A DNA stretch of 45,177 nt from Candidatus Enterococcus ferrettii. Its GTDB lineage: Bacteria; Bacillota; Bacilli; Lactobacillales; Enterococcaceae. Shown piece after piece: positions 6,892 to 41,053 of this stretch (the first letter of the stretch is position 1; each line of letters opens with the position of its first letter). The stretch is taken from contig NZ_JAFREL010000027.1 in the NCBI RefSeq assembly GCF_017377655.1, positions 1-45,177 on the forward strand. The letters run 5' to 3'. The position numbers were made by a program, and so were the translations under genes. The notes beneath the pieces were generated by a model that was given only the letters and a program-made list of their open reading frames with translations, was not told the DNA's origin and did no database searches.

Positions 6892-7701
6892 TTAGCATCT
6901 AACCTGTCTTACTACTTCGACTGCTTGGTGTAGCCTTTCTGGTTTACTACCAAAACGACCTAAAAGAACTCCATCCAAATCAGCTAAGTTTAACATGATT
7001 CTCGTATTTTCTGGACTGACTGTACCTCCGTAAACGACTCGAATAGCATTCGCTTTTTCTTTAAACAGTTCATTCAAAGAGTCTCTTATGATCGAAACAA
7101 CTCGACTGATATGCGGAGCACTTGCCGCTTTCGTTTTTCCAACAGCCCACGCAGGTGTATAGGCAATCACGATTTTATCTAACTTATCACAGTCAACACC
7201 ATAGAAAGAATGAAAGATTCGTAAAAAAAGTTCACTCTTCAAATCTTTTTCATAATTTGGATTTTTTATTTCATCAATGACGTTATTTGCCTCGTTTTCT
7301 TCCATTTCACCGATACAGACAATTGGAGAAACATCGTATCTTAAAGCCAATTTTACTTTTTTATTGATTGCTTCATCCGTTTCATTGTATAGCTTTCTCC
7401 GCTCCCAGTGTCCCAATTCGACAAATTTCCCTTGCATATCCACTAAAGATTGGATAGAAAATTCGCCATTAAGCTCCCCTTGATCAATTACTGCCATATT
7501 TTGAGCACCGAATTCAATCAAACTCCCAGAGAGAACTTTTGAAACTTGCTGAATCGTTCCCATTGAAGGTAGAAGAACAATTTCAACTAATCGGTTTTCT
7601 GATTCATGATCACGGATCATAACCGCATATTTTTCTGCTTCTGCAATAAGGTTTTGTCTCATAGACCAATTCATTATGACAATAGGTTTTCTTTTGTTCA
7701 C
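6892..7701 (-). CDS. Triosephosphate isomerase-like protein lacking catalytic Lys and Glu
   Basis: A TIM-barrel protein of 269 residues clearly related to TpiA. Conserved features are the Asn of the NWK motif (N11), the electrophilic His in LGHWERR (H98), VCIGE, and YGGTV (223-227). Two catalytic positions are changed: the Lys of GNWKMN is Ser (MNWSMR, S13), and the Glu of AYEPVWAIG is Thr (AYTPAWAVG, T182). The late phosphate loop GGAS is GRFG. It therefore should not be an ordinary GAP/DHAP isomerase. It is the last gene of the PTS operon. I chose the GTG at 7701, nine bases after GGAG; a TTG at 7710 touches the RBS. It may be an isomerase for another phosphate sugar, a sensor, or a decayed enzyme. 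Confidence 0.85.
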   Translation of the reverse strand: MNKRKPIVIMNWSMRQNLIAEAEKYAVMIRDHESENRLVEIVLLPSMGTIQQVSKVLSGSLIEFGAQNMAVIDQGELNGEFSIQSLVDMQGKFVELGHWERRKLYNETDEAINKKVKLALRYDVSPIVCIGEMEENEANNVIDEIKNPNYEKDLKSELFLRIFHSFYGVDCDKLDKIVIAYTPAWAVGKTKAASAPHISRVVSIIRDSLNELFKEKANAIRVVYGGTVSPENTRIMLNLADLDGVLLGRFGSKPERLHQAVEVVRQVRC

Positions 7702-7776
7702 TTTAAACAACTCCGTCCTGCATCAATTTGAATCAACAAGGTTTTAGTATTCTCTCAAGCCACTTAAACATCTTCT

Positions 7777-8421
7777 TTATTTCCGATAAGCTTCCCAATC
7801 TTTCTCAAATTGTTCAATGCCGCTATCTGTCAAAGGATGACTCCATAATTTAGGGAAGATTATTCCAGGAATAGTTGCAATATCCGCACCTAACTCTGCT
7901 ACTTTTTCCACATGGTTCAAGCCACGAATGCTTGCTGAAATGATCTCTGTTTTGAACAAATAGTTGTCTAAAACAGTTCGTAAATTTTTAATTAATTCAT
8001 GACTATCAGTTCCAATGTCCTCTAACCGTCCTAAGAAAGGACTAATATAGGTAGCACCTGCTTTAGCAGCCATTAAACCTTGCGCAACAGAAAAGACTAA
8101 TGTCACATTTGTTTTAATCCCTTCTTTAGAAATTATATTTACCGCCTTTAATCCTGCTTCTGTCATAGGAATTTTGACAACAACATTTTCTGCCCACTGG
8201 CTTAATTCTCTGGCCTCCTTAATCATTCCATCTACATGAACAGAAGTGACTTCTGCACTTACAGGACCATCAACAAGTGCGCAGATTTCTTTAATCACCT
8301 TTTCAAAGTCCTTGCCTTCTCGCGCAATGATTGTTGGATTTGTCGTTACACCATCTACCAATCCAAGTGACTTGATTCGTTTAATTTCATCAATGTTTGC
8401 TGTATCCAAGAAAAACTTCAT
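7777..8421 (-). CDS. TalC-type transaldolase / fructose-6-phosphate aldolase family
   Basis: A small (214-residue) class I aldolase of the Fsa/TalC subfamily. Schiff-base Lys is K83 in VVVKIPMT. Other conserved elements are LDTAN (Asp6), [12 protein letters not shown] and ASIRG. The diagnostic position that is Tyr in fructose-6-phosphate aldolase is Phe here (F129 in [10 protein letters not shown]), which favours transaldolase activity. ATG at 8421 gives the family start MKFFLDT, nine bases after AGGAG; an ATG two codons upstream is also possible. It lies between the KDPG-type aldolase and the TPI-like gene, so it probably moves three-carbon units derived from the PTS sugar. Confidence 0.88.
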
Positions 8422-8474
8422 TTTCATTTACTCCTATTCAATTCCTTATTTAATTCTTTGACAATTTGTATCGA

Positions 8475-9128
8475 TTATCCAGCAGCAACAATTTGTACTA
8501 ACTTTCGGGCATGCTCAGTCAGTACATCATAGTCTCCCGCAGCAATATGCTCTTTATTCGTAAGATAATTGCTGATCCCAGCACCCGAGAATCCTCCACT
8601 TAAGTAATCAGCTAAGTTATTCGGAGTTACTCCTGCCGTAGCAAGCAGCTTAACATGATTGATTGGACCTCTGATATCCTTTACGTAACCTAATCCTAGC
8701 GAACCAACTGGAAATACTTTAACAAAATCAGCACCTGCCTCGTGAGCCTCTAAAATTTCAGTTGGTGTTAAAGCACCCGGAATAGAAACTAGGCCTAGCT
8801 TTTTTGTATACTTGATTACTTCTACATTTGTATTCGGTGAGATAATATATTTTGCTCCCGCTTTGTATGCGGCATCGACTTGCTCTACTGTAACTACTGT
8901 GCCTGCTCCAACACTAACTTTTCCTTTGAACGTTTGGGATAATTCATTAATTGCTTTAGGCGTTTTAATAAGGCACGCCTCATCATTTTGATCAAATGTA
9001 ACTTCTACGAGGCGAACTCCTCCTCTTTCTAATGCAGTGACTAAATGAATCAGCTCATTACCATAGGTGCCACGGCAGATTGCTACAATTTTGTTTTCTT
9101 CGATAAATTGAATTGTTTCTTTACACAT
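8475..9128 (-). CDS. KDPG/KHG-type aldolase (Eda family)
   Basis: A class I aldolase of the 2-keto-3-deoxy-6-phosphogluconate family, 217 residues. The catalytic Glu (E42 in VEVTF), Schiff-base Lys (K137 in DFVKVFP), Arg18 of the phosphate site (AICRG), GAGTV and the TAGVT loop are all present, so it should be active. Known members split 2-keto-3-deoxy-6-phospho-sugar acids into pyruvate and glyceraldehyde-3-phosphate. It sits 16 bases after the EIIA gene. No KDG kinase or dehydratase is nearby, so the substrate may arrive already phosphorylated through the PTS. Confidence 0.88.
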   Translation of the reverse strand: MCKETIQFIEENKIVAICRGTYGNELIHLVTALERGGVRLVEVTFDQNDEACLIKTPKAINELSQTFKGKVSVGAGTVVTVEQVDAAYKAGAKYIISPNTNVEVIKYTKKLGLVSIPGALTPTEILEAHEAGADFVKVFPVGSLGLGYVKDIRGPINHVKLLATAGVTPNNLADYLSGGFSGAGISNYLTNKEHIAAGDYDVLTEHARKLVQIVAAG

Positions 9129-9144: not shown

Positions 9145-9555
9145 CTAAAAGTTTATTTTTTCTCTTAAATTAATGACACTATTTTCAGCAAGCTCCATGC
9201 AGTGATCAACGAGGTGGTCCAATTCCATTGTTTTTCTCGTACTTAAAACTTCCAATAAAATTGGTAGATTTGTACCTACTATACATTCAATAGTATGGGT
9301 TACTCCAAGTTCGTTCATTGCCATTGCTGCCATATTTGTCGGGCTGCCTCCATACAAATCCGTGAGAATTAGCACCCCTTTTCCTTGGTCCAATCTTTTC
9401 ACAGCTTCAATAATGCGTTCTTTCAAGCCTTCAACGCTGTCTCCATGATTTAAGCCAACAGACTCGATCTGGTCTACTTCACCAAAAATCAAGTTGGATG
9501 TGGCAATTAACTCTTTCCCTAAATTTCCATGCGTCGCTACTAAAACACCTATCAT
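9145..9555 (-). CDS. PTS mannose-family EIIA component
   Basis: The cytoplasmic EIIA domain accepts phosphate from HPr and passes it to EIIB. The 136-residue protein begins MIGVLVATHGNLG; His9 in the THG motif is the phosphorylation site. DLYGGSPTN is the other family signature. AGGAGG precedes the ATG. It is a free-standing EIIA (not fused to EIIB) located between the EIID gene and the aldolase gene in the PTS operon. Confidence 0.92.
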   Translation of the reverse strand: MIGVLVATHGNLGKELIATSNLIFGEVDQIESVGLNHGDSVEGLKERIIEAVKRLDQGKGVLILTDLYGGSPTNMAAMAMNELGVTHTIECIVGTNLPILLEVLSTRKTMELDHLVDHCMELAENSVINLREKINF

Positions 9556-9566
9556 CTTATTTCCTC

Positions 9567-10397
9567 CTAAAACAATCCAATCAACACACCAACAATAGCA
9601 ATTAGAATTAAAATAATTAATACTTTACTTGAGCTGACTTTTTTGTTAAGCAAATGCAACGTTAGAAAAATCAATCCTAAAGGTAAAATATTCAAAATAA
9701 TTTTATCCAATATTTCTTGGATAACCAGATCATTTTCTCCAAAAGTAAATTTTAGTGCTGTATTCAATTTGACTGTATTGGCAGCCAAACCCCCAATGGT
9801 AATAGCCCCAACTGCCGTTGCACCAGTCATTAATTTTTCTAATTTTCCACTGGCAAAGATATCATTAATTCCTTCTTTTCCTTTTTTATACGCACCGCGG
9901 AACAAACCATAAGAAATTCCATGATTAATCCCTAAGGTGGCTACCATATAAAAGACAGGTCCTAATAAATTGCCAGCAACTCCCATCGCAATAGCAATTG
10001 AACCAATTATAGGGATTAGCGTTCCTTGTCTCAAAGTATCTCCAATTCCCGCCAATGGTCCCATTAAACCAGTTTTAACACCACTGATATCTTCATTAGA
10101 TATCGGTAAGCCATTCGCCCGTTCTTCTTCCATTGAAAGTGTAATCCCAACAATGATCGGACCAATCAGCCAAGCTTCACAATTAAAAAATTCCATGTGG
10201 CGCTTGATAGCCTCTCGTTTCTCTTCTTCGTTATCCCCATAAAATTTTTGGATAGGACCAGACATAGCAGACAAAAATCCAGGAGCTTGCAGCCGTTCAA
10301 AACTATAAATCGCCTGACACATTGAACACCAGGTCCAGTATGTTTTATTCAAATCCGCCTTAGTCAATGTTTTAGTTTTAGTCAATGTTTCTTCCAT
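9567..10397 (-). CDS. PTS mannose-family EIID component
   Basis: Membrane subunit that forms the sugar channel with EIIC. 276 residues. Conserved EIID features are WCSMCQAIYSFERLQAPGF near the N-terminus, the middle segment MGPLAGIGDTLRQGT, and hydrophobic helices at the C-terminus. The N-terminus has a short Thr/Lys repeat (TKTKTLTK). It starts three bases after the EIIC stop, so translation is probably coupled. Confidence 0.92.
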   Translation of the reverse strand: MEETLTKTKTLTKADLNKTYWTWCSMCQAIYSFERLQAPGFLSAMSGPIQKFYGDNEEEKREAIKRHMEFFNCEAWLIGPIIVGITLSMEEERANGLPISNEDISGVKTGLMGPLAGIGDTLRQGTLIPIIGSIAIAMGVAGNLLGPVFYMVATLGINHGISYGLFRGAYKKGKEGINDIFASGKLEKLMTGATAVGAITIGGLAANTVKLNTALKFTFGENDLVIQEILDKIILNILPLGLIFLTLHLLNKKVSSSKVLIILILIAIVGVLIGLF

Positions 10398-10400
10398 CCT

Positions 10401-11165
10401 TTAGCCCTCCTGACTTTCTGGGAATTTAAGATCTGTATAAAAATATGCTAATATTGCAGCTAGAATTGCTAGTAAAATAATCGGTATTCCTGAATAGCTA
10501 ATAGTAAAAAATCCTAATAAGAAAAATGGAATGATCCCCTTGCGGTTACTTATAATTCGTACAGTTAAAGCAATCCCTAATGCTGGTAAAATCCCACCTA
10601 TAGTCGTCAATATTTCCAGCGGTGTTCCAGCTAATATATCCAGAATTGATTTGACTGCATCTCCTCCAAAATAAACAATGACAAACACAGGAATAGCTGA
10701 TAGGGCGAAAGTTAATAGTTGTCCAGGGACTAGCTGAATAAACCACATTTTTTTTAAATTCCCTTCCTCAGCCTCTTTGTCCAACCAATGAACAAAAAAA
10801 GAATTGATGGTCATTCTAAAATTCCATATTAATGTTCCCACAAGACCAAAAGGTACAGCTAAAGTCAATGCTACTCCAGGATCTGAAGCAGTAATCAATG
10901 TCAAAGCGGTTCCAACTACACCAGCAATTCCAGGTTCACTGGCAATTGCTCCACCAGTCACAATAAAGCCTAAAAACAATGTGTTGATAGTAGCCCCAAC
11001 GATCAGTCCCTGAACCGGATCCCCAAGTATAATACCGACAACCGTTCCTGAGACGATTGGCTGCCTTAGGGAAACTGAACCTAATCCAGCTAACCATGGC
11101 GGCGAGGCTACCGTTAAGTAATAAAGAATTCCTAAGAGAATTGCCTGAAAAATACTGATTTGCAT
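10401..11165 (-). CDS. PTS mannose-family EIIC component
   Basis: Integral membrane permease subunit that binds and moves the sugar. About 254 residues, very hydrophobic, starting MQISIFQAILLGILYYLT. Family motifs include RQPIVSGTVVGIILGDPVQGLIVGA (positions about 36-60). ATG at 11165 was chosen because AGGGGG lies eight bases before it. An upstream ATG at 11198 would overlap the EIIB gene and lacks a good RBS. Confidence 0.92.
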   Translation of the reverse strand: MQISIFQAILLGILYYLTVASPPWLAGLGSVSLRQPIVSGTVVGIILGDPVQGLIVGATINTLFLGFIVTGGAIASEPGIAGVVGTALTLITASDPGVALTLAVPFGLVGTLIWNFRMTINSFFVHWLDKEAEEGNLKKMWFIQLVPGQLLTFALSAIPVFVIVYFGGDAVKSILDILAGTPLEILTTIGGILPALGIALTVRIISNRKGIIPFFLLGFFTISYSGIPIILLAILAAILAYFYTDLKFPESQEG

Positions 11166-11178
11166 GTGTTTTCCCCCT

Positions 11179-11655
11179 CTATTTAAGTACGTCTTCAACT
11201 TTCATTGGTGTATCTTCAGATAAAACCTGGATAAATACATCCATCCCTTTTTGTGTTAATACTTTTAATGTTTGTCTTTCTTCCTTACTAGCTGATATAT
11301 TGCGATAAAGAACTTCTCGACCAGCCTTTGCTCCCATGCCGCCAACACAAACACTTGGGATTTCCACCCCTTTATCGGAAAGTTTTTCTAGTTCCATCGG
11401 TGTTTTGACTAGAAGAAAAACTTTTCCGTTATTCCCTTCTGATTTCAAATAATTAGCAGCCTCATCAGTAGATAAAACTTTTAAACCGATTTTAGCTGGC
11501 ATCGACCCTTTCATAATCATCGTCATAAAAGAATCTTTTGCTGTTTTATCGTCTGAGATGACCACCTCTGAAGCTTTAGACAACTGCAGCCAAGCTGTCA
11601 TGACTTGTCCATGAATTAGCCGATCATCAATTCTAGTAAATACAATCTCTTTCAT
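11179..11655 (-). CDS. PTS mannose-family EIIB component
   Basis: Cytoplasmic subunit that takes phosphate from EIIA on a histidine and gives it to the incoming sugar. 158 residues starting MKEIVFTRIDDRLIHGQV; His15 in RLIHGQV is the phosphorylation site. The ATG at 11655 lies six bases after AGGAGG. An adjacent ATG at 11658 forms an ATGA overlap with the dehydrogenase stop but is only three bases from the RBS. Either start implies translational coupling to the dehydrogenase gene. Confidence 0.92.
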   Translation of the reverse strand: MKEIVFTRIDDRLIHGQVMTAWLQLSKASEVVISDDKTAKDSFMTMIMKGSMPAKIGLKVLSTDEAANYLKSEGNNGKVFLLVKTPMELEKLSDKGVEIPSVCVGGMGAKAGREVLYRNISASKEERQTLKVLTQKGMDVFIQVLSEDTPMKVEDVLK

Positions 11656-12590
11656 CATTCTCCTCCTTGATTTTTCAAACAATCAACCACGTTTTTAGCC
11701 GAAATATAAGACATCTTGTTACTTGCTTCTACTGTTACAGCAGCATTATGAGGGGTCAGTGTGACATTGTCCATGGTATAATAATCAGTGTCGATATCTT
11801 CAACAGATAACTGAGCATCTACTCCATAGCCAAAAAGCTTTCCAGTATTTAAGGCTTCCTTAATTGCTTCATCATCAACCAATTGTAATCGAGCCGTATT
11901 GATTAACACAGCATTATTTTTCATGTATTTGATACTTTCCTTGTTGATCAAAGGCTGAGAAGAGTTATTGGCTGGAATGTGCAGCGTGACTACTTCAGCT
12001 TTTTTCAAAATATCTTCGATTGAAGCTTTTTTGACATCGTATTGAGTGCAAAAATCCTCATCGTAGAAAAGATCAAAAGCGAATAGTTCACAATTGAATC
12101 CCTTCAATCTTTTCGCCACTTCTTTTCCAATCGCACCAAGTCCGATTATTCCAACTTTTTTATTACATAAATCAATACCTTCCTTCTTTTTCCACCCTTG
12201 TGTCCTTAGCATGCGATCAGCGTAACTGACACCTCGACAGACATCCAACATCAGGGCAACTGTATAATCTGCTACAGCTTCGTTATTACTATTTTTTGTA
12301 ACTGTCAAGCCAATGCCATTTTTTTCTAAATATGAAGTATCGATATTATCAATGCCTACACCATACCGTGAAACTATTCTCAATTTTGTGGCTTTTTTCA
12401 AAACTGCTTCGTCCAAAATTTCAGTTCCTAAGATTACAGCCTCTGCATCTGCAATTTCCCCAATAAATTCCTCCTTATTCATAATTCTTTTGTACTTATT
12501 CAAAACCACCTCAAAACCATTGTTCTCCAATAACTCTTTTGCCTGATTACTAAATTTTCCAAAACTATTGGAAGTAACTAAAACTTTCAT
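11655..12590 (-). CDS. D-2-hydroxyacid dehydrogenase family protein, first gene of the PTS operon
   Basis: NAD-dependent reductase of the phosphoglycerate/D-lactate dehydrogenase superfamily, 311 residues. The Rossmann motif is GLGAIG (150-155). An acidic residue at the end of the second strand (AFDLF) favours NAD over NADP. The catalytic Arg (R234, INTAR) and His (H281, TPHNAA) are present. The usual DVFExEP segment carrying the catalytic Glu is replaced by DAQLSVED; the aligned position is Val263 with Glu264 next to it, so activity is uncertain. NTARGG is NTARLQ. It heads the operon, which implies a redox step in this pathway. Possible roles are reduction of pyruvate from the aldolase, or oxidation of an imported hydroxyacid. 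Confidence 0.85.
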   Translation of the reverse strand: MKVLVTSNSFGKFSNQAKELLENNGFEVVLNKYKRIMNKEEFIGEIADAEAVILGTEILDEAVLKKATKLRIVSRYGVGIDNIDTSYLEKNGIGLTVTKNSNNEAVADYTVALMLDVCRGVSYADRMLRTQGWKKKEGIDLCNKKVGIIGLGAIGKEVAKRLKGFNCELFAFDLFYDEDFCTQYDVKKASIEDILKKAEVVTLHIPANNSSQPLINKESIKYMKNNAVLINTARLQLVDDEAIKEALNTGKLFGYGVDAQLSVEDIDTDYYTMDNVTLTPHNAAVTVEASNKMSYISAKNVVDCLKNQGGE

Positions 12591-12600
12591 GCGATTCCTC

Positions 12601-12615
12601 CTAAAGCGTTTCCAT
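12601..12615 (-). promoter_or_regulatory. Candidate cre site (CcpA) at the operon start
   Basis: The minus strand reads ATGGAAACGCTTTAG, matching the catabolite-responsive element around the central CG and in the left half, weaker at the right end. It lies between the -10 and the dehydrogenase start codon, where CcpA would block elongation. A PTS operon under glucose repression is expected. Confidence 0.5.
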
Positions 12616-12626
12616 TTATTATTGAG

Positions 12627-12654
12627 AATATATCACGGATATTTTTTACTACAA
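12627..12654 (-). promoter_or_regulatory. SigmaA-type promoter of the PTS operon
   Basis: Minus strand TTGTAG (12649-12654), 16 bases, then TATATT (12627-12632), with TG one base before the -10 (TGaTATATT). I looked for a sigma-54 -24/-12 element (GG-N10-GC) in the whole intergenic region and saw none. That is notable because the linked regulator belongs to a sigma-54 activator family. Confidence 0.6.
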
Positions 12655-12707
12655 AATTTGTGTCTTTTTATACACTTGTGAGATCAGTGTAATGTAATGA
12701 AATCCTG

Positions 12708-12721
12708 TTTTACTAGTAAAA
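12708..12721. promoter_or_regulatory. Perfect 14-bp palindrome, candidate operator
   Basis: TTTTACTAGTAAAA is perfectly self-complementary. It sits near the middle of the divergent intergenic region, upstream of the operon -35. This is a plausible binding site for the divergent regulator, but nothing in the sequence proves it. GTGTA/TACAC half-sites also recur nearby (at about 12670, 12764 and 12796). Confidence 0.4.
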
Positions 12722-12801
12722 TTCTCATTGTTAAAATATCAATATCTCCTACTGTGTAAAACCCGTGTATTAAGAAAGAAAAAACAGAAAAATGCATACA
12801 C

Positions 12802-12816
12802 GTTTAGCGCTTTCAT
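12802..12816 (+). promoter_or_regulatory. Candidate cre site upstream of the PTS regulator
   Basis: The + strand reads GTTTAGCGCTTTCAT. The half AGCGCTTTCA fits the CcpA consensus exactly, while the other half is degenerate. It lies about 55 bases before the regulator start. Together with the site at 12601 it suggests catabolite control of both divergent units. Confidence 0.45.
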
Positions 12817-12872
12817 GTTAATATAAAAATCACTAGAAGACAGGTATTTGCACAATTTTATGAGGTGATTTT

Positions 12873-15272
12873 TTGAAATTGAGTCGAGAAGAAGAAATTT
12901 TGCTTGAAGTAGATCTTTCCACTAAAGAAGCAATTTTGAAAGATAGCTATGAAGAATTTGGTAGGGATGCACTGAGCTTGAGTGTTGATCTATCAATTGA
13001 TCGATCAAATGTATCCAGAATATTAAACAATTTGTGGAACAATGGTTCGCTTGCCAAAATTCAAGGTAAACCAACTTATTACTTCTCTAAAAATGTTGTG
13101 GAACAATTTTTTCCTACGGTCTTTATTCCCTCTACCTTAGAAGCCGGAATTGATCTGAAAAAATTCCTATCTGAGCATGCAAATGAAGAAAAAAGCAGTG
13201 AAATAAGTTTATCACAAAACTATTATGGTTTCTTTTCACCTAATGGCAGCATGTATCGTCAAGCACAACAATTAATTAGTCATTTTTTTCCTAAGCCGCT
13301 CATTAACCAGTTCATAATATATGGAGCAGCTAGTACGGGAAAAAGAACCTTAGTGAATTATTTATTTGATGAAGGAAAAAAAGCTGGCGTATTTACCAAA
13401 CACGAAAAACCTTTCTTTATTGATGTTGATAAATTGATTTTATCTGAAGAAAAATACGCTGATTTACTACTGGGTTCTGTTTATGGAAACTCAAAAAGAA
13501 AGGGTTTGCTGACTAAACTTGAGCATGGATTATTAGTCATCGATAGAGCAGAGTGTCTCCCAACAACAATCTACCAGCTTTTAAGACAAGTTGGTGAGAG
13601 CGGTTATTTTTATGAATTTAATCAACCCTCTAAAGAAAGAATACTCAAAGTGTCCATTCTCTTTCTTGTCGAAGAGGAAGTCACAAGTCCTATGACACAA
13701 TCTGTTTTATTGCCAAATTTCTGTGAAAAACCAATAGCGGAAAAAATACAATTTTGTCTTCATTTTTTAGAGAAGGCTGCCAACATAAGCAATCAATCCA
13801 TCAAAGTGCATAAAGATATCTTGAGTTGTCTAGTTACTTCCGACTACCAGAATAATTTAGCTCAACTAGAACAAGAAATTTTCTCTGCTGTAAGCAGAGC
13901 TAGATTCTCTGCAAAATCTGATAATCAAATGATTGCCGAAATAACTTTCGATGAACTTTCAGACAATGTCTTAGAACGAATCACGATTACAAATCCATTA
14001 GTGGCAGAACTAAACAGCTATTTGAACTGTTGGGAAACTGACTCGCTCTATTTTGTCCCTCAAACGCAGGACAATACTGAACTCATAAAAAAACGACTGA
14101 CCGAAGAACAACGAAACACGAGCATCATAGGAAATTCTCAAATCATTATGGATGAATGCATGATCATTTACAATCAATTTTTCAGTCTTTCTGAGTCAGA
14201 AGTTCAACAAATAAAAGCAGGTCCTTTTTGGCTAATTATTAAGCAGCAATACAGTAAAAAGACTAGTGAAAAAGAAAAAAAGGGATTAGTCGCTTTTGCC
14301 CACTACCTAGAAACTTATTTTGAGGAAAAAAAGCGTGTATACAAGCCTAAAAAATTTGTAAAAATTCCGATTGAAGCAAATCGTTTTTTTACTAAGGCAA
14401 CAGAAATAAAGAAACATTTAAAAAAGGAGTTAGGTATTATTCTTACCAATGAAGAATTTGATTTAGCAGCTTGCTATTTTATGTATTTGAATCAGCTTTC
14501 AAAAAAAGAACAACTTCCTATTGTTATCCTATGTCACGGTGAGAATATTGGACTGACGTACATAAAATACATCAATACTCTTAGCCTGTCTCCAATAGAA
14601 CTTCATGCGATTGACTATGTATCAGAAGATGATCGAGAATTTAGAACATTTATCAAGGAATTTAAAACTATGATAAAATCGATCAACAATGGGAATGGCG
14701 TAATCATTGCTAGTGACATTGAACCGTTGACCACGATTCATTCGTTGATTGAAAGTGAATTAAACATCCAATGTCAAACTTTCTCCCCGGTTTCACTACC
14801 ATTATTATTAGAAATAATCAAAAAAATCCAACTGCAAAATTATTCAATTTCAGATTTTAAGCGTGAAGATAACAAAAGAGAATTGCAGGTCGTGACCCAA
14901 TCCTTTGATAATGAATTGATCGATAAGCTCGCACATTCTCTACTAGCTGACTCTTTAGTCTTTCTTGATCCAAATAAAACTGCTAATATCCTTTTTACTA
15001 TTCTTGAAGATTTATTAACGCAACTTAATCTCGAAAATAGTGAAGAAATCACGGTTCGTTTTGTCGTTCATTGTTCCTTCATGTTGGAACGAGTGATAAA
15101 ACGCGAAACGATGAATTTTCCTAAACTGAGAGATTTCATCAATACAAACAGCAGTCTTTTTCACTCGGTTGAAATACATTTATCAAGATTAAACAATATT
15201 TTTGATATCATGATACCTTCTAATGAGTATGCTTTTGTATGCGAAATTTTTAAAGATTTGTACGGAATATAA
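12873..15272 (+). CDS. LevR-like PRD regulator with a degenerate sigma-54 ATPase domain
   Basis: 799 residues with the domain order of LevR-type activators of mannose-family PTS operons. There is an N-terminal HTH (about 20-70), an AAA+-like region (about 115-345), PRD1 (about 370-490), an EIIA-Man-like domain (about 545-655, H555 in VILCHGENIG) and PRD2 (about 685-799, H733 in RFVVHCSFMLER). The ATPase is decayed: the Walker A is GAASTGKR, the Walker B is LLVIDR instead of a DE pair, and the GAFTGA loop is missing (GSVYGNSKRKGLL). It probably cannot remodel sigma-54 polymerase, so it likely acts as a plain activator or repressor whose PRDs sense PTS phosphorylation. Start is TTG after GAGGTG. 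The gene is visibly AT-rich. Confidence 0.85.
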   Translation: MKLSREEEILLEVDLSTKEAILKDSYEEFGRDALSLSVDLSIDRSNVSRILNNLWNNGSLAKIQGKPTYYFSKNVVEQFFPTVFIPSTLEAGIDLKKFLSEHANEEKSSEISLSQNYYGFFSPNGSMYRQAQQLISHFFPKPLINQFIIYGAASTGKRTLVNYLFDEGKKAGVFTKHEKPFFIDVDKLILSEEKYADLLLGSVYGNSKRKGLLTKLEHGLLVIDRAECLPTTIYQLLRQVGESGYFYEFNQPSKERILKVSILFLVEEEVTSPMTQSVLLPNFCEKPIAEKIQFCLHFLEKAANISNQSIKVHKDILSCLVTSDYQNNLAQLEQEIFSAVSRARFSAKSDNQMIAEITFDELSDNVLERITITNPLVAELNSYLNCWETDSLYFVPQTQDNTELIKKRLTEEQRNTSIIGNSQIIMDECMIIYNQFFSLSESEVQQIKAGPFWLIIKQQYSKKTSEKEKKGLVAFAHYLETYFEEKKRVYKPKKFVKIPIEANRFFTKATEIKKHLKKELGIILTNEEFDLAACYFMYLNQLSKKEQLPIVILCHGENIGLTYIKYINTLSLSPIELHAIDYVSEDDREFRTFIKEFKTMIKSINNGNGVIIASDIEPLTTIHSLIESELNIQCQTFSPVSLPLLLEIIKKIQLQNYSISDFKREDNKRELQVVTQSFDNELIDKLAHSLLADSLVFLDPNKTANILFTILEDLLTQLNLENSEEITVRFVVHCSFMLERVIKRETMNFPKLRDFINTNSSLFHSVEIHLSRLNNIFDIMIPSNEYAFVCEIFKDLYGI

Positions 15273-15289: not shown

Positions 15290-15769
15290 ATGAAAATTGT
15301 TTTAGCAAGAATTGATGATCGTTTAATCCACGGTCAAGTTGTTACACGTTGGATACAATACTCACGGGCAAAAAATGTATTGATTATTGATGATGAAGTT
15401 CCAAACAACTCTTTTTTGAAGCAAGTCATCACCCTATCTATACCTCCTAAGATCAATATCTTTATAAAATCAATCTCAGAAGCTATAGAGTTTATTCATT
15501 CTAACAAAACAAATGACAGCTTTATGCTTTTATTCAAGTATCCTGACACTGTTTTGAAATTGCTCAATTCAGGAGTTGACATTCCTGAACTAAATTTAGG
15601 TGGAGTTGGAGCCCATGAAAGAAGAAAAAAATTTTATCGAAATATTTCTCTTTCCAAGCAAGAAATCGAAACCTTACGTACTATTTCTGAAAGAGGATCA
15701 AAGATTTTTATTAAAAGCATACCTGAGGACAAGGATATCTCATTTCAAACGCTAATTCAGGACAACTAA
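15290..15769 (+). CDS. Second PTS mannose-family EIIB, linked to the regulator
   Basis: A 159-residue free-standing EIIB beginning MKIVLARIDDRLIHGQVVTRW; His14 in RLIHGQV is the predicted phosphorylation site. It lies 17 bases after the regulator on the same strand, so the two should be cotranscribed. The operon already encodes an EIIB. This copy may therefore pass phosphate to the regulator rather than to sugar, or it may be an alternative transport subunit. The regulatory role is an inference from location only. Confidence 0.88.
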   Translation: MKIVLARIDDRLIHGQVVTRWIQYSRAKNVLIIDDEVPNNSFLKQVITLSIPPKINIFIKSISEAIEFIHSNKTNDSFMLLFKYPDTVLKLLNSGVDIPELNLGGVGAHERRKKFYRNISLSKQEIETLRTISERGSKIFIKSIPEDKDISFQTLIQDN

Positions 15770-40923: not shown

Positions 40924-41024
40924 TAATTTTCCCCCTTAGTTCTTATTATTCAAGACAAATACCAGCCAACTAATCTATTTTTAAAACCAATTGCATAAAA
41001 GACTCGACTGGCAACTCATGTGCC

Positions 41025-41053
41025 ATTATAGCAATAAACCTAAAGCTTGCCTA
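41025..41053 (-). promoter_or_regulatory. uppS promoter
   Basis: Minus strand TAGGCA (41048-41053), 17 bases, TATAAT (41025-41030). The -35 is weak, the -10 is consensus. The rest of the 288-base frr-uppS gap holds two terminators and no gene. Confidence 0.55.

Follow-up and report, generated by a model that had tools for sequence, protein, structure and literature searches.

The DNA analysed here (the window: 45,177 nucleotides of Candidatus Enterococcus ferrettii, whose genome comprises 5.4 Mb in 157 contigs) contains an open reading frame encoding an eroded LevR-type regulator of 799 amino acids (12873..15272, forward strand), with a TTG start codon located after GAGGTGA. This gene lies back to back with a mannose-family PTS/aldolase operon on the reverse strand, the two being separated by a divergent control region of 282 bp (12591..12872). 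The first gene of the operon encodes a protein of the D-2-hydroxyacid dehydrogenase family (11655..12590; PF02826, E 6e-46) and is followed by genes for EIIB (11179..11682), EIIC (10401..11198), EIID (9567..10397), EIIA (9145..9555) and a KDPG/KHG aldolase family protein (8475..9128), all identified with Pfam, and for a fructose-6-phosphate aldolase family protein (7777..8427; TIGR00875 above cut-off). A triosephosphate isomerase family gene on the same strand (6892..7710; PF00121) is perhaps part of the same operon. On the forward strand, 17 bp after the regulator gene, is a stand-alone sorbose-type EIIB gene (15290..15769; PF03830, E 3e-45) whose product retains the IDDRLIHGQV active-site region and shows 94% identity to the E. 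pallens copy and 40% identity to the operon EIIB.

Domain organization of the regulator

Alignment and structure models placed an HTH, an AAA+ region, a PRD, an EIIA(Man)-like domain and a second PRD in that order in the regulator, the AAA+ region and PRD1 being present as folds only, in agreement with the LevR-like order proposed in an earlier, sequence-only reading of this DNA. The N-terminal winged HTH (residues 1-79; 12873..13109) is apparent from the alignment, from helices in the model and from a weak TrmB match, and six of its residues (R44, N46, S48, R49, L51 and N52) are invariant in all eight eroded proteins described below. It is followed by an AAA+ remnant (residues 111-345; 13203..13907), a PRD1-like helical domain (residues 400-544; 14070..14504), an EIIA(Man)-like domain retaining H555 and D615 (14508..14867) and PRD2 retaining H733 (14910..15254; PF00874, E 3e-9); both histidines had been read correctly. 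The earlier proposal that PRD1 remains holds for the fold, a helical bundle predicted by the model, but not for the phosphorylation site, since the canonical histidine aligns with Y478 and is lost, and the adjacent H477 is a tyrosine in E. pallens; Pfam detects only one PRD, the second. Pfam matches to the regulator consisted of this PRD near the C-terminus (residues 710-793, E 3e-9), EIIA-man (residues 550-651, E 0.001, slightly below the family cut-off) and weak matches to a TrmB-like HTH (residues 33-71) and an AAA lid (residues 296-342), with no sigma-54 interaction domain among them and, at E 0.01, no EIIB(Gat)-like domain behind the two PRDs. At the same threshold Sigma54_activat (PF00158) matched neither the regulator nor any of its seven relatives. 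Against the NCBIfam DagR model the regulator scored 99 bits over four stretches, the cut-off being 1400.

Three damaged parts of the AAA+ region had been proposed and each was found. The Walker A remnant reads GAASTGKR (residues 151-158; 13323..13346), with the lysine retained and arginine in place of Ser/Thr; the Walker B remnant reads LVIDR (13533..13547), with D224-R225 instead of Asp-Glu; and the place of the GAFTGA loop (residues about 201-213; 13473..13511) reads GSVYGNSKRKGLL with a five-residue alignment gap relative to intact LevR-type proteins, the loop being deleted. Further losses had gone unlisted, namely those of the Ser/Thr of Walker A, of both sensor I threonines and of both finger arginines. 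Alignment with 54 intact LevR-type rows restored neither GAFTGA nor Asp-Glu in the regulator, and the Walker A Ser/Thr, Walker B DE, sensor I Thr-Thr and finger Arg-Arg present in 54/54 intact rows were found in 0/8 eroded rows, as was the GAFTGA loop. The intact rows are search hits, and hence an uneven sample, chosen partly by GAFTGA-like and DE motifs, which makes the counts for these two motifs circular in part; the choice did not draw on the Walker A Ser/Thr, sensor I or finger residues. Single letters survive in some eroded rows, namely the Walker B aspartate in 3/8 and the first sensor I threonine in 3/8, and neither finger position is an arginine in any of the eight, all within a region where the alignment of the eroded proteins is itself uncertain. 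The Walker A GK is retained in 7/8 eroded rows and is GR in the remaining one, so nucleotide binding without hydrolysis is possible.

Retention of the AAA+ fold in the regulator is supported by structure prediction. The alignment behind the first model included 23 intact rows, which bias it towards that fold; a second model made from eroded rows only had a mean pLDDT of 65, with residues 180-260 poorly modelled, and in comparisons with it the AAA+ chains of Lon, Clp and clamp loaders scored near those of sigma-54 activators.

A different alteration of the loop was seen in a separate clade of otherwise intact LevR-type proteins (L047:5380-7932, on contig C66 of the window's genome, and relatives L012-L016, L019, L030 and L058), in which the first Gly of GAFTGA is replaced by His in seven rows and by Gln in two, nine of the 54 intact rows in all. 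The member in the window's genome retains a near-perfect -24/-12 element with a score of 18.2.

A clade of eroded relatives, and purifying selection on the window regulator

Protein and profile searches identified eight eroded proteins in all, seven in Enterococcaceae and one outside the family. Those in Enterococcaceae came from 4 of 105 genomes and comprise three in the window's genome (the window regulator and proteins on contigs C24, locus L029, and C137, locus L042), two in E. pallens (L010 and L045) and one each in genomes G010 (L011) and G016 (L033). The eighth, in genome G288 (L084), was the sole addition from samples of the order, class and phylum (395, 398 and 299 genomes) together with 29 genomes of the G288 family. 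Rare relatives may have been missed because at most nine candidates per genome were scored in the family and two to three in the order, class and phylum. Eleven further loci were inspected, with GAFTGA present in ten and NAFTGA in one (L110, G288). When the single protein was run against named genomes, with records very near the window's genome possibly left out, the E. pallens orthologue alone was returned. Among the 19 records from a plasmid search by protein, identity stayed under 60% and coverage of the query under 80%.

In a quick tree of 62 rows calculated without the AAA+ columns, the eight eroded rows fell on one side of a branch with an SH-aLRT support of 100, with all 54 intact rows across it. 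Eight of 70 input rows had been dropped, seven being cut or duplicate pieces and one not LevR-type. The same split was weakly supported (71) by the HTH part alone and supported at 99 by the C-terminal part alone, rising to 100 when five long rows were omitted; branches within the eroded clade are long, and trees of this quick kind carry a warning of long-branch meeting.

The regulator and its orthologue in E. pallens ATCC BAA-351 share 91% identity across all 799 residues, as well as the same setting. Comparison of the two genes gave a dN of 0.045 and a dS of 0.65, with dN/dS values of 0.07 overall and 0.08 for the AAA+ remnant by NG86, and 0.10 and 0.13, respectively, by YN00. Judged by these substitution rates, the regulator gene is under purifying selection, the AAA+ remnant included.

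Among the eight eroded proteins H555 is retained in three (those of the window and L029, and the E. pallens orthologue) and H733 in six, so control by the PTS does not extend to the whole clade. The proteins at L033:1495-3834 (G016) and L045:8778-11057 (E. pallens) have lost the phospho-histidines of the EIIA-like domain and of PRD2 alike, and therefore may not read the PTS at all.

Eroded regulators are divergent to a mannose-family PTS operon at 7/8 loci and co-directional with it at C24, the PTS genes beyond the window having been identified by eye. The operons of two other eroded regulators (L044:3698-5320 and L045:3669-5244) also seem by eye to hold a window-like dehydrogenase and a KDPG-type aldolase. 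An EIIB gene at the 3' end of the regulator gene was seen, among eroded loci, only in the window and E. pallens. The operon linked to the C24 regulator contains a tandem pair of EIIB genes (L120:2575-3548), and thus an extra EIIB lies beside two of the three eroded regulators of this genome.

Intact and eroded loci of one genome differ at their promoters

The window's genome contains rpoN (contig C100, E 1e-59) and 24 places matching PF00158, 21 strong and three weak, with 19 of the strong ones in proteins of LevR-type length. It contains 19 intact and three eroded LevR-type regulators, whereas E. faecalis V583 is described as having four such activators plus a fifth interrupted by an insertion element, placed by or near their PTS genes (PMC8262876). 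One intact LevR-type protein, of 990 residues (L040; G000:C124:42583-42723), shows an N-terminal weak match to the sigma-54 DNA-binding domain (21.1 bits, cut-off 22.8).

Loci were scanned with a sigma-54 matrix built from consensus frequencies, a choice that the 19 positive loci justify. Every one of the 19 intact LevR-type loci in this genome scored at least 15.3, 18 of them at 17.4-18.7 and the nineteenth at 15.3-15.5, whilst among 2000 random 300-bp stretches none reached 17.4 and 1.7% reached 15.3. At 16 of these loci the element ends 23-80 bp ahead of the next open reading frame, the distance at the other three being ambiguous through mechanical choice of the frame. By contrast, the eight eroded loci had best control-region scores of 3.1 (window), 7.0, 3.5, 2.1, 4.2, 3.2, 6.5 and 11.1 (C24), intact loci being scored by the best hit in a whole locus of 11.6-19 kb and eroded loci within the control region alone. 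Scored over the whole locus, the eroded loci reached 12.4-16.4 at best, and best scores of 15.3 or more lay inside genes (L041, L043 and L105) or, in the window, 28 kb off. The latter is a sigma-54-like site at 41010-41025 on the reverse strand, between two open reading frames, with a score of 15.9 and one mismatch to the consensus; it may be due to chance, as 1 in 60 random 300-bp stretches scores as high.

In the divergent region of the window the -24/-12 consensus was unmatched with up to two mismatches allowed, and GG-N10-GC was found on neither strand of the 282 bp, as the sequence-only reading had stated. GG-N10-GC was likewise absent from the control regions of L042, L043, L044 and L045 and was present in three of the eight, those of E. 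pallens, L105 and C24, the first two being low-scoring. The C24 copy (score 11.1) is on the operon strand about 85 bp ahead of the EIIA gene and within a hairpin, and is a weak candidate for a sigma-54 element. Since the intact loci have a -24/-12 element and the eroded control regions score no higher than 11.1, protein and promoter differ together within one genome, and judged from these comparisons this joint difference is the strongest argument that the eroded proteins no longer serve sigma-54.

Candidate operator and promoter in the divergent region

The divergent region contains six GTGT/ACAC words, five of them GTGTA/TACAC. A candidate operator, GTGT-N8-ACAC (12660-12675) followed by ACACT...AGTGT (together 12660..12693), is conserved in E. 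pallens. Roughly 4 bp separate the GTGT-N8-ACAC part from a poor -35 downstream of it, which would pair with a candidate extended -10 of the PTS operon, TGATATATT (12627..12635, reverse strand), and both are kept in E. pallens. The SigmaA-like extended -10 proposed earlier thus exists and is conserved, but it was unlisted in a scan for consensus sigma-A promoters, in which the region gave two sites against a shuffle mean of 1.6, and it is a candidate only. This layout would fit an activator acting at a putative sigma-A promoter.

GTGTA occurred 19 times in the 1811 bp of six eroded-locus regions, compared with 3.8 in shuffles (0/300 as high) and with eight occurrences in 5100 bp upstream of 17 of the 19 intact regulators; the pooled count did not include the near-copy L046, and the region of C24 was left out entirely. 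Region by region, the word was enriched in five of six (at most 31/1000 shuffles as high), with none in L105. Relative to stretches of matching composition drawn from the loci retrieved, the GTGT/ACAC count was rare in L043 (9/3931 as high) but not in the window (27/799), L044 (65/2206) or L105 (997/4462). The word was picked by eye after inspection of the loci and, as a de novo EM motif search gave A/T tracts only, the observation rests on counts of an eye-picked word. An inverted-repeat search found GTGT-containing arms in L046 and L042 and gave no repeat common to the four regions compared. On these counts GTGTA is a candidate operator word. A cre-like site noted by eye at 12796-12816 was rejected as a CcpA site, the cre consensus being unmatched in the divergent region with up to two mismatches, and in the whole window cre matches were no commoner than in shuffles (24 against 27.9).

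Discussion

The best explanation of these sequence data is that the regulator arose from LevR-type sigma-54 activators but has ceased to drive polymerase containing sigma-54, and the eroded proteins probably control genes by a route other than sigma-54. The sequence-only reading had suggested a LevR-like protein rewired to act without sigma-54; this is well supported at the sequence level, because alignment restores neither GAFTGA nor Asp-Glu and the control region has no -24/-12 element, and it is a feature common to a clade rather than peculiar to this gene. We put a probability of about 0.68 on the window's protein being a PTS-controlled, sigma-54-independent, LevR-derived regulator of the divergent mannose-family PTS/aldolase operon, most likely an activator. 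Through its N-terminal HTH this protein would recognize GTGTA-rich operators within the divergent region and govern the operon at a sigma-A promoter. Activation from a position immediately ahead of the weak -35 is the likeliest mode, with the AAA+ remnant possibly acting as a nucleotide-binding or oligomerizing scaffold. PTS phosphorylation of H555 and H733 would set its activity, and the phosphate donor to H733 is perhaps the EIIB encoded directly behind it, a role as private donor suggested because inhibitory EII-mediated phosphorylation of PRD2 is described for LevR-type regulators (PMC8262876).

A sigma-54-independent protein could instead repress the divergent operon and its own gene. That GTGT words span the whole divergent region, including toward the regulator's own start, and that a TyrR relative can replace TyrR as a repressor (PMC3162934) would agree with repression, but LevR-type ancestors activate and the candidate operator at 12660-12675, just upstream of the candidate -35, would be in an activator-like position; we regard this mode as unlikely, while giving it real weight. 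Considerably more doubtful is an accessory or dominant-negative subunit that is incorporated into the rings formed by an intact LevR paralogue and modulates a sigma-54 promoter at another locus. Nineteen intact LevR-type proteins in the same genome could offer partners and the models retain an AAA+ fold, yet the regulator has its own linked operon without a -24/-12 element there, its arginine fingers and sensor I are lost, and the 54 intact rows all lie across a fully supported branch.

Heavy loss of catalytic motifs might also indicate a decaying pseudogene of a LevR activator. The frame is open, however, the E. pallens orthologue is 91% identical with a dN of 0.045 and a dS of 0.65, the AAA+ remnant is constrained and the same elements are missing in seven relatives; decay would need a dN/dS value near 1, and this explanation was rejected. 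Equally hard to credit is an ordinary sigma-54 activator misaligned in the earlier reading, for although the domain order is LevR/DagR-like, the alignment with 54 intact proteins, the lack of a PF00158 match and the control-region scan, which found no -24/-12 element, contradict it.

For the clade as a whole, a more speculative and rather improbable history would be stepwise conversion of a LevR activator, in which the sigma-54 motor was lost and the promoter exchanged, leaving the GxxxxGK pocket as a non-hydrolysing sensor. Loss of PTS phospho-sites (H555 in 5/8, H733 in 2/8) would have followed, so that the members with the heaviest erosion would sense a metabolite or nucleotide directly, and a private EIIB partner would have been added in the window's line.

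Individual proteins, TyrR and DhaR among them, are the few cases in which an activator's departure from sigma-54 has been described. Protein and promoter can here be compared side by side, because one genome has 19 intact regulators with -24/-12 elements and three eroded ones without, and the eight relatives display graded loss. Naming such genes sigma-54 activators by overall similarity would be wrong, and the clade makes it testable whether a non-hydrolysing AAA+ remnant retains a signalling task. Searches of open-licence papers turned up no account of LevR-class proteins lacking the sigma-54 machinery, and earlier cases may exist. Among Clostridiales activators, 455 of 490 are accounted for, 355 exactly and 100 as variants, in the text drawn on here (PMC6615313).

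The regulator resembles the PRD-containing sigma-54 activators LevR, ManR, MptR and DagR in its HTH-AAA+-PRD-EIIA-PRD order, its linkage to a mannose-family PTS operon and its match to the DagR model, but differs in having no ATPase signature beyond GxxxxGK, no GAFTGA and no arginine fingers, and in a linked operon without a -24/-12 element. Regulators of the MtlR/LicR and Mga/AtxA types are not known to use sigma-54 or to have an AAA+ remnant. They are likewise PRD-controlled DNA-binding regulators, but are described as having two DNA-binding domains at the N-terminus together with EIIB(Gat)-like domains (PMC8560693). A further likeness is to relatives of sigma-54 activators with a defective GAFTGA in which the sigma-54 contact is lost or judged lost; TyrR, DhaR and HupR are described as having lost it and depending on sigma-70, and the same has been argued for VpsR and YplP (PMC3162934). 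The present lineage differs from these in carrying PRD and EIIA-like domains and in having lost Walker B, sensor I and finger residues besides the loop. TyrR, DhaR, HupR, VpsR and YplP belong to activator classes other than LevR; what is notable here is the side-by-side setting and the clade-wide loss in the LevR class, not a new principle.
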